Of a stretch of 64,000 nucleotides of DNA, positions 18,368-36,462 are shown one piece after another (position 1 is the stretch's first letter; every line of letters starts with the position of its first letter). Origin of the DNA: Kangiella taiwanensis (GTDB lineage Bacteria > Pseudomonadota > Gammaproteobacteria > Enterobacterales > Kangiellaceae); NCBI RefSeq assembly GCF_020005165.1, contig NZ_JAHCLT010000002.1:310001-374000 (forward strand). Direction: 5' to 3'. The notes beneath the pieces are model-generated. The model worked only from the letters and a program-made list of their open reading frames with translations, made no database searches and was not told the DNA's origin. A program made the position numbers and the translations under genes.

Positions 18368-18733
18368 ATGAAAACGTTAGCAATGAGTAGTTTACTGTTT
18401 TTAGCTGGTTCCATGGCTGTATCGGCTGATAGCTTAACCAACAAGCACTTTACCCTCGTTACCACTCACCAGAATGAGATCGGTGAAATTTGCCCAGAGA
18501 TGGATGCTGGGCAACATTTGAAATTTGAGTTTTCTTCCAACCATGAAGTTGAGTTTAACCTTCACTTTCACGAAGGTGAAAAAGTCTCCTACCCCATCGA
18601 GCCACAAACGTTAAGCTCAATCGATAGAACCTTTGAAGCGCCAATCAAGCAAACCTACTGCCTAATGTGGAAGGGGTTAAGTGAACAAGCTTCGAAGATA
18701 AAAGTGAACTATCAGATTTTGCCGACAAAGTAG
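18368..18733 (+). CDS. Small exported protein of unknown function
   Basis: 121 residues with a signal peptide (MKTLAMSSLLFLAGSMAVSA). The mature part is beta-rich and His-containing (FNLHFHEGEKVSYPIEPQ) with two Cys (in GEICPEM and TYCLMW) that may form a disulfide. The pattern recalls small cupredoxin- or emp24-like periplasmic beta sandwiches, but I recognise no family. It has a good Shine-Dalgarno (GAGGG) 5 nt before the ATG and ends at its own terminator. Confidence 0.7.
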   Translation: MKTLAMSSLLFLAGSMAVSADSLTNKHFTLVTTHQNEIGEICPEMDAGQHLKFEFSSNHEVEFNLHFHEGEKVSYPIEPQTLSSIDRTFEAPIKQTYCLMWKGLSEQASKIKVNYQILPTK

Positions 18734-21388: not shown

Positions 21389-21424
21389 AAAAAAACCCGC
21401 AAAGGTTGTCCAGTGCGGGTTTTG
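21389..21424 (-). terminator. Attenuator terminator of the lysAC leader
   Basis: On the minus strand, ACCCGCA (21414-21420, segment 3) pairs with TGCGGGT (21395-21401, segment 4), extended by flanking A-T pairs, with a 12-nt loop and a run of seven U. It lies between the leader-peptide stop (21450) and the lysAC start (21341), so it would stop transcription before the gene. Segment 3 can alternatively pair with segment 2 (21452-21461) at the end of the leader ORF. Confidence 0.82.
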
Positions 21425-21449
21425 ATATTCGTTAAATTTATCGTTTAAG

Positions 21450-21524
21450 TCACCCACAGCAGAACAGGACACGTTTTTTAAGTGCCTTTTTGCTGTGTTT
21501 TTTAACGATAAATTGTATTTTCAT
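21450..21524 (-). CDS. Lysine-rich leader peptide of lysAC
   Basis: 24 codons from ATG at 21524 to TGA: a peptide starting MKIQFIVKKHSKKALKKR and ending VLFCCG. Seven of 24 residues are Lys, including pairs at 8-9, 12-13 and 16-17. It lies between a consensus promoter and an attenuator terminator upstream of a lysine-biosynthesis gene, which is the layout of trp/his/thr-type leader peptides. Codons 10-11 form segment 1 (CACAGCA) and codons 22-24 form segment 2 (TGCTGTGGGT). No Shine-Dalgarno is visible; the predicted transcription start coincides with the A of the ATG, so translation would be leaderless. Confidence 0.72.
   Translation of the reverse strand: MKIQFIVKKHSKKALKKRVLFCCG
21452..21497 (-). 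promoter_or_regulatory. Lysine attenuator: alternative RNA pairings 1:2 and 2:3
   Basis: On the minus strand, segment 1 CACAGCA (21491-21497) is perfectly complementary to TGCTGTG in segment 2 (21455-21461). The 3' part of segment 2, TGTGGGT (21452-21458), can instead pair with ACCCGCA (21414-21420, the 5' arm of the terminator), 7 bp with one G-U. A ribosome stalled at the Lys codons would mask segment 1 and free segment 2 to form the antiterminator; a ribosome at the stop codon would mask segment 2 and let the terminator form. Pairings are read from sequence; the mechanism is inference from known attenuators. Confidence 0.68.
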
Positions 21525-21531
21525 GATGTTG

Positions 21532-21559
21532 AATATAGTAAAAATCGACACTTTGTCAA
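21532..21559 (-). promoter_or_regulatory. Sigma-70 promoter of the lysAC leader
   Basis: On the minus strand: a perfect -35 TTGACA (21554-21559), 16-nt spacer, -10 TATATT (21532-21537). Seven nt after the -10 is the A of the leader-peptide ATG (21524), the expected transcription start. The promoter begins 12 nt after the tadA stop codon, so lysAC is transcribed separately from tadA. Confidence 0.78.
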
Positions 21560-35948: not shown

Positions 35949-36462
35949 TATGATTACCTTTTTGCGATTAAAATCACCTGTTTCGCTATAACTGTGTTAA
36001 AAAAGTGTTCAAAGTACTCAACTACCTAATAAAGGTAACCTCCGTCTTTTCACAATTTTTGCCTTGTTCTAGCATCACCAGGCGCTTTTAAGACTTCATG
36101 ACAATTAAAGTCAAAAAAGTCATTTGTACAAATTTTACGCTATTCTAGGCTTTTACAGCGTTAATAGCAAAACAACAAAGCCCCATATCTCTAAGCTACT
36201 ACCTAACTTGAGGAAAGAGCCCTTCTACCCCGTAATATTAAGCCGAGAAACAATGAAGCCATAGCAAATCAAATCAGGGATGATTTGATTAGTGAAATTC
36301 AGGCCAAGGAAGGACTGTATTTCACGGTGCGTAAAATGGATGAATTGTTATGAGGGAAGTCATGCTTGCATGACCTTAATATTGGGGTGGCCTTCTCTTT
36401 GGCTACTTTCTCTTGGCCACGCAAGAGAAAGTAGCTCGCTGAGAAGCGAAATAAAAACTAAA
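35949..36462. repeat. Gene-free interval with three hairpins between rlmN and ndk
   Basis: 514 nt without a supportable gene. It holds three palindromes: a 10-bp perfect stem with GGGA loop (AATCAAATCA 36267-36276 / 36281-36290), a 7-bp stem GTCATGC (36359-36365 / 36368-36374), and a 14-bp perfect stem with a 6-nt loop (36402-36415 / 36422-36435), itself flanked by CTTCTC/GAGAAG. The last resembles a hairpin repeat found scattered in many gammaproteobacterial genomes. The upstream half holds the rlmN promoter region. Confidence 0.7.

Follow-up and report, generated by a model that had tools for sequence, protein, structure and literature searches.

The fused lysAC gene examined here is preceded by a leader that, judging from its sequence and conservation, very probably acts as a ribosome-mediated transcription attenuator sensing charged tRNA-Lys; we put the probability of this reading at roughly 0.88. 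The mechanism itself is ordinary ribosome-mediated attenuation, and it is the lysine specificity, the target, and the predicted leaderless start that are unusual. A codon-reading solution seems to have been applied to lysine, at a fused gene whose product catalyses the first step of the pathway as well as its final, lysine-specific one.

The lysAC locus and its leader

The window—the whole 64,000-nt stretch analysed, positions 310001-374000 of contig C2 in a 2.56-Mb genome—carries, in order along the minus strand, tadA, the leader region, and lysAC (Table 1), the last of which is thought to be the gene under the leader's control. LysAC matches the NCBIfam model for bifunctional aspartate kinase/diaminopimelate (DAP) decarboxylase (NF006515) at 1226.6 bits against a cut-off of 802, and has AA_kinase, ACT_9, and Orn_Arg_deC_N domains. 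No DAP decarboxylase other than that of LysAC was found in this genome; a second decarboxylase homologue scores as an exosortase-associated decarboxylase (TIGR03099). Aspartate kinase feeds methionine and threonine too, and further aspartate-pathway enzymes are encoded in the genome—a separate aspartate kinase (L029), ThrA, and a second kinase/dehydrogenase. Given these other kinases, the lysine-specific half of LysAC would therefore make lysine the fitting signal.

Table 1. Coordinates of the lysAC leader and of other features discussed (window positions unless a contig is named)
Feature	Position	Strand	Basis
tadA	22050-21571	-	NF008113 match
-35 box TTGACA	21559-21554	-	promoter scan
-10 box TATATT, 16 nt from -35 box	21537-21532	-	promoter scan
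Leader peptide ORF MKIQFIVKKHSKKALKKRVLFCCG, 24 codons + TGA	ATG 21524 to TGA 21450	-	ORF reading
Control region, codons K8-K17, three Lys-Lys pairs	21474..21503	-	Lys invariance
Segment 1 CACAGCA, partner of segment 2	21497-21491	-	folding, conservation
Inner hairpin GGCAC/GTGTC within 1:2 hairpin	21468..21486	-	both-side changes
Segment 2 TGCTGTGGGT, overlapping ORF end and first base of stop codon	21461-21452	-	folding
Segment 3 ACCCGCA, alternative partners segment 2 (antiterminator) or segment 4 (terminator)	21420-21414	-	folding
Intrinsic terminator, segments 3 + 4, ten pairs, seven T	21423-21389	-	folding
lysAC, aspartate kinase fused to DAP decarboxylase, 852 aa	ATG 21341, stop 18783	-	NF006515
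Small protein gene, convergent with lysAC	18368-18733	+	
TwoAYGGAY RNA	36251-36354	+	RF01731
thrA upstream region with leader MIIFNTTTTTTTIFLTEVAG (L130)	C2:642300-643400		

The promoter matches 11 of 12 consensus bases, and the ORF behind it encodes seven Lys, with the Lys-Lys pair occurring three times. At this single locus, the count of one promoter-like site in 401 bp is what shuffled sequence yields (mean 0.8), and the Lys enrichment is modest (P 0.0125 against dinucleotide shuffles). The fold of the leader (21540-21380) reaches -44.7 kcal/mol (z -5.7) and that of the terminator alone -17.3 kcal/mol (z -5.3), each with 0 of 200 shuffles as stable; the 1:2 hairpin alone reaches -16.8 kcal/mol (z -3.2) and the antiterminator region alone -14.4 kcal/mol (z -2.1; 9 of 200 shuffles as stable). 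The terminator is not listed by the terminator scan, which accepts loops of 3-8 only. The inner hairpin of the 1:2 structure is possibly an RNA polymerase pause hairpin.

A sequence-only reading of the window had described a promoter, a 24-codon ORF with seven Lys, and a terminator with seven T ahead of a fused lysAC; all three lie where it had placed them, on the minus strand, and the NF006515 score identifies the gene as a fused lysAC. Its segments 1 to 3 and the 1:2, 2:3, and 3:4 layout before lysAC are likewise borne out by the sequence, the pairings themselves being predicted by folding.

Conservation across the genus

Full-length LysAC is encoded by 19 of the 20 genomes of the genus (L002-L020), with G017 lacking it, and a Lys-rich ORF and terminator stand directly upstream of lysAC in all 19—it is this conservation that lifts the element above chance level, the leaders being related to one another and the counts not independent. 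Promoter and leader are complete in 18 of the 19; the contig of the other (L010) starts inside the leader. A covariance model (R1) finds the element once per genome in those 19, before lysAC only (the G011 element, split at contig ends, gives two rows), and does not find it in G017; R1 was built from these same leaders and shows uniqueness and placement, not independent discovery. Together, sequence and conservation document a putative promoter, an evidently translated ORF, its Lys codons, possible alternative pairings, a terminator, and the likely target.

The ORF is intact in all 18 complete leaders, with three to eight Lys codons in each and at least five in 17. Among nine main-clade leaders of 24 codons (a set that left out L015, which also has 24 codons but is divergent), Lys is invariant at codons 8, 9, 12, 13, 16, and 17. 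In codons 8-18 of the same nine leaders, first, second, and third positions are variable at 0, 1, and 7 of 11 sites, and over codons 7-19 the reading frame of the leader has 89 synonymous changes among 137 pairwise codon differences (65%), whereas the shifted frames give 12 of 149 and 13 of 139 (8-9%). Counted over all codons, the figures are 125 of 364 in frame versus 20 of 370 and 51 of 369. The stop codon varies (TGA, TAA, or TAG), and alignment gaps inside the ORF measure 12 or 24 nt. Judging from these codon patterns, translation of the leader ORF is under selection.

The divergent peptides of L015 (MTLSQAKKPIKKTLKKCVPWFCAW), L016 (MNINICNKSFAKKALKHKAMASYCG), L018 (MNLNCIQAKKSVKKTLKPSVWISCVW), and L020 (MNLSTCNKKRTKKVSKKDAKANYCG) have little in common but Lys. 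The exception, and the weakest case, is L019 (MNCIFVNAQIAMKQMMKMSKQDVPIVCAR), with three Lys and four internal Met. Lys is enriched over dinucleotide shuffles at the P 0.05 level in 11 of the 18 leaders, the others being L007-L009 and L016-L019 (P 0.39 for L019). The L019 leader, whose antiterminator is compensated (see below), might read both Lys and Met.

Alternative pairings and ribosome position

Folding predicts the 1:2, 2:3, and 3:4 pairings in all 18 complete leaders, every one of which has the terminator, and RNAalifold, given 19 leaders, recovers the terminator together with the inner hairpin of 1:2. That inner hairpin has both-side changes in four of its five pairs (19 leaders) and 100% of its cells paired (12 leaders); in the segment 1 helix, 86.9% of cells are paired in 12 leaders and there are no both-side changes. 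The 1:2 structure as a whole, in 12 main-clade leaders, has 92.4% of cells paired and five both-side cells (each matched by 7 of 500 shuffles), with a covariation score matched by 3 of 500, and of the five measures, two stay at shuffle level (how many pairs change on both sides, and how many pair types occur). Slid versions of the structure drop to 17-60% paired, and a longer outer helix shows 74.2% pairing with covariation matched by 0 of 500 shuffles.

For the 2:3 structure, 88.2% of cells are paired in the 12 main-clade leaders, no measure rises above shuffles, and the flanking pairs are unsupported; the absence of covariation in the main clade arises because the core of the antiterminator is nearly invariant there. 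Only among divergent relatives do sequence changes lend it support: pairing is in a different register in L015, L018, and L019, and in L019 segment 3 has changed and segment 2 has changed to match. Against a shuffled segment 2, 2:3 attains P ≤0.05 in 4 of 18 leaders, and 1:2 attains P 0.05 in 9 of 18, with 0 of 6 among the divergent ones (windows as used). The combined P for 2:3 is 2.4e-4 over eight representatives, hand-picked from related leaders. We regard the statistical support for an exclusive 2:3 antiterminator as moderate.

The sequence-only reading had suggested aligning relatives in search of conserved Lys codons with covarying segment pairs: the Lys codons are conserved and the inner 1:2 hairpin covaries, but 2:3 shows no covariation in the main clade. 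It had also counted the loss of Lys codons beside a retained terminator against itself, and no such loss was seen, all 18 leaders keeping both. Its interpretation as a lysine leader-peptide attenuator is supported by this comparison.

Stalling was modelled by folding each leader without segment 4 and with the RNA masked as far as 12 nt beyond the A-site codon's first base. Across the 18 leaders, 2:3 is predicted with the ribosome at 106 of 108 Lys codons versus 233 of 332 other codons, a contrast that is partly geometric, since the last codons cannot be permissive. With the ribosome at the stop codon, 2:3 forms in none of the 18 in this fold model. If the ribosome has not moved beyond the start codon, the model nonetheless gives 2:3 (at least 0.7) in seven of the 18 (L005, L009, L011, L014, L018, L019, and L020), and default termination without translation is therefore not conserved.

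A predicted leaderless start, and a similar spacing at thrA

In 17 of the 18 complete leaders, 34-36 nt separate the leader ATG from the start of TTGAC, counted from its first base (61 nt in L015), and the leader mRNA is therefore probably leaderless, with transcription predicted from this spacing to start at or within ~2 nt of the ATG. By the patterns used, no Shine-Dalgarno-like motif occurs 4-18 nt before the leader ATG in any of the 18 (L016 and L020 have AAGG nearer the ATG than that interval), and one occurs within the 25 nt preceding the lysAC match in 16 of 18. This probable leaderless start was absent from the sequence-only reading and is new here; it makes the efficiency of translation uncertain, and it would give access to a way of translating leader peptides that has received little study.

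In the same genome, thrA (NF006959, 938.7 bits) is preceded by a Thr-rich leader, MIIFNTTTTTTTIFLTEVAG, with a terminator and a TTGAC-to-ATG distance of 36 nt. Among 12 regions retrieved from upstream of aspartate-kinase-like genes in the genus, seven show a Thr leader, five of these seven with the 36-nt spacing; the thrA-like loci with Thr-rich leader and terminator are L130 and L154-L159. A Thr leader on thrA and a Lys leader on lysAC in one genome make codon specificity directly testable. For a leaderless attenuator leader there is a published case in the trpL of S. meliloti (PMC7298713).

Proposed mechanism and alternative explanations

The steps from transcription start through ribosome stalling and termination to a lysine response, which we infer, would run as follows. 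The promoter would start an mRNA with the leader ATG as its first codon. When Lys-tRNA is plentiful, the ribosome would pass the Lys codons to the stop codon and cover segment 2, so that the 3:4 terminator forms and transcription ends before lysAC. When Lys-tRNA is scarce, the ribosome would stall on a Lys codon over segment 1 and leave segment 2 free to pair with segment 3, blocking the terminator and letting lysAC be transcribed. If the leader were not translated, 1:2 would form and termination would be expected, at least in this genome.

The strong folding of the leader region would also suit an RNA that senses lysine or another ligand directly, in the manner of a riboswitch, or via a protein, with the Lys-rich ORF incidental, and the RNA found before lysAC or lysA in family f163 (see below), kept where its ORF is broken, indicates that such RNAs can exist. 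However, no Rfam family reaches its gathering score in the leader region, and the lysine riboswitch model (RF00168), which matches in four control genomes, E. coli among them, matches neither in the window nor in any of the 20 genus genomes; the in-frame synonymous bias is strong, the gaps measure 12 or 24 nt, and L015-L020 differ in RNA yet keep in-frame Lys codons, so we hold a ligand-sensing RNA to be very unlikely. Still further from likely, and in our view scarcely credible, is that the terminator merely ends tadA, with a plain lysAC promoter and a leader ORF that is not regulatory. It is true that tadA lies on the same strand and ends 148 nt before the terminator, but the promoter sits between the two and the terminator therefore acts on the lysAC transcript; moreover, the upstream gene in L016, L017, and L020 is another than tadA (by eye), and leader and terminator remain with lysAC there. 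The selection on the leader ORF argues in the same direction.

Two further explanations accept a working leader peptide. It might answer another amino acid or translation in general—Lys plus Met, for instance, or Arg—and an Arg does follow the last Lys-Lys pair in 12 complete main-clade leaders, the Met-rich peptide of L019 has few Lys, and the supply of Met and Thr draws on aspartate kinase as well; Lys, however, is the residue kept in the control region of all 18 leaders, and thrA has a Thr leader of its own in the same genome, which leaves this quite unlikely. The other, also unlikely if slightly less so, is a function of its own for the small basic peptide encoded by the ORF, or an effect in trans of the short attenuated RNA. 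Most of the main clade keeps KKHSKKALKKR or a close variant, and S. meliloti peTrpL and rnTrpL provide a reported precedent (PMC7298713), but the peptide is not conserved in L015-L020 beyond Lys and a few residues, and a role in trans would add to attenuation and not replace it.

Comparison with known systems

Attenuators of the classical kind control genes for Trp, His, Thr, Leu, Ile/Val, and Phe, and the lysine genes of the DAP pathway are usually placed under the riboswitch. The trp, his, thr, and leu attenuators of Proteobacteria (RF00513, RF00514, RF00506, RF00512) have the same anatomy as the element described here—a promoter, a short ORF rich in codons for the end product, 1:2, 2:3, and 3:4 pairings, a stop codon over segment 2, and a biosynthetic gene downstream. 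The present element differs from them in its Lys codons, its lysine gene, its predicted leaderless start, and a similarity below threshold: in a loose-threshold Rfam search of five loci, the best match to a Trp, His, Thr, or Leu leader model was Leu_leader at 25.6 bits against 50 (E 0.17). Matches of the IsrM sRNA model over the leader (23.6 bits in L002, 26.5 in L015; gathering score 376) were taken as chance.

In E. coli, lysC is preceded by the lysine riboswitch (RF00168), which, as the leader of lysAC is predicted to do, cuts short the expression of an aspartate kinase gene of the lysine pathway under ample lysine; unlike that leader, the riboswitch RNA binds lysine itself, and it is the element with no match in the 20 genus genomes. 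The lysine genes of Thermus thermophilus are reportedly controlled by Lys codons in a leader peptide, and the sequence-only reading, which knew of no characterised lysine leader-peptide attenuator, is thus probably wrong on this point. The Thermus case is said to concern the alpha-aminoadipate pathway, in another phylum, whereas here it is the DAP pathway and a fused lysAC. A literature search, largely confined to papers outside subscription, found no lysine leader-peptide attenuator. PMC2659441 has lysC under the riboswitch, PMC1262725 has Actinobacteria without a lysine RNA element and the riboswitch elsewhere, and the main text of PMC2965389 makes no mention of lysine. The S. meliloti trpL leader resembles ours in that the attenuated RNA begins at the ATG of the leader ORF (in ours, by prediction; PMC7298713 for trpL), and differs in concerning Trp, trpE(G), and an alphaproteobacterium.

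Searches outside the genus

Scans with R1 in the order and the class used stricter filters than the genus scan. R1 matched 18 of 295 genomes of the order, 16 of them from the genus and two weak (G408, E 8e-4; G485, E 4e-4), and one of 369 genomes of the class, the window's own. We rejected G408 and G485 as carriers of the same element, their matches being weak and without a Lys leader (by eye); these two loci, from another genus (L152 and L151, respectively), show two tandem terminator-like hairpins directly before an aspartate-kinase-like gene (by eye).

The lysAC gene itself was found in 8 of 274 class genomes, the window's own included, and in 26 of 40 genomes of the family, seven of these 26 from sister genera. 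The five readable sister-genus loci have no such leader (L125 and L128 were unreadable). In L122-L124, also of sister genera, lysAC seems by eye to lie behind a threonine-synthase-like gene and may belong to a thr operon. A scan for a terminator and short ORF upstream of 76 lysAC-like loci outside the genus (80 minus L080, L087, L088, L092, L114, L117, and L118, plus the order loci L119-L121), some with short upstream DNA and only those with a terminator-like site being displayed, gave no convincing Lys-rich leader; the seven class loci L032-L038 were inspected visually. One candidate, a KKKIK before a terminator in a Bacteroidia MAG (L106), was set aside, as what we take to be a Bacteroidetes -7 box seems to lie inside its ORF.

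A different lysAC leader in family f163

Another conserved attenuator-like RNA, in most cases with an ORF that looks leaderless, precedes lysAC in the gammaproteobacterial family f163 (L032, L165-L180, L184, and L186-L234), and a Chromatiales MAG (L042) has the same leader. A scripted scan of 68 loci, with some repeats, reported a leader ORF in 49, among them one false hit (L217). Of the remaining 48 rows, at least five of them repeats of a locus already counted, 47 have the start codon at 35 nt from the -35 box and one has it at 40 nt, a count biased by the scan, which accepted starts 33-41 nt after TTGAC, TTGAT, or TTGCC only, preferred 35, and required ARQR. The peptides mostly carry K-x-x-K before ARQR: among 42 distinct ones, Lys stands at -6 in 36 and at -3 in 33. 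A distance of 34-36 nt from the -35 box to the ATG recurs in Lys leaders, Thr leaders, and this unrelated lysAC leader.

In 14 f163 leaders, the 1:2 helix CACCCACG:CGTGGGTG shows complete pairing (112 of 112 cells), with seven both-side cells (matched by 0 of 500 shuffles), and 2:3 is 96.4% paired with no covariation above shuffles. A model of the element (R2) matched 86 of 356 genomes of that order, all in f163 except a weak match in G720, and 2 of 369 in the class (G186 and one weak). In nine genomes of genera g371 and g380 the element stands directly before an unfused lysA.

The f163 ORF is not always kept with the RNA. Start codon or frame is gone and the RNA retained in g380 (L217-L224) and in L171, L226, L230, and L234; L193 has ACG where a start codon is expected, and the ORFs of L216, L232, and L233 are without Lys in the control region. 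With the ORF broken and the RNA kept in such loci, we did not use f163 as support for the mechanism proposed in the window; its element is only partly explained and is separate from the window's. At somewhat less than even odds, we tentatively suggest that in bacteria with a fused lysAC, leaderless leader-peptide attenuators took the place of the lysine riboswitch on more than one occasion, in the genus and in f163. The f163 RNA, found before both lysAC and unfused lysA and outliving its ORF, may have become, or may always have been, a different lysine-linked switch.

Other features of the window

The small protein gene convergent with lysAC encodes a probably secreted product (by eye) without a Pfam match, and similar small proteins seem to adjoin lysAC in L005, L015, L016, and L018 (by eye). 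The window also contains a TwoAYGGAY RNA, which scores 48.5 bits against a cut-off of 43.
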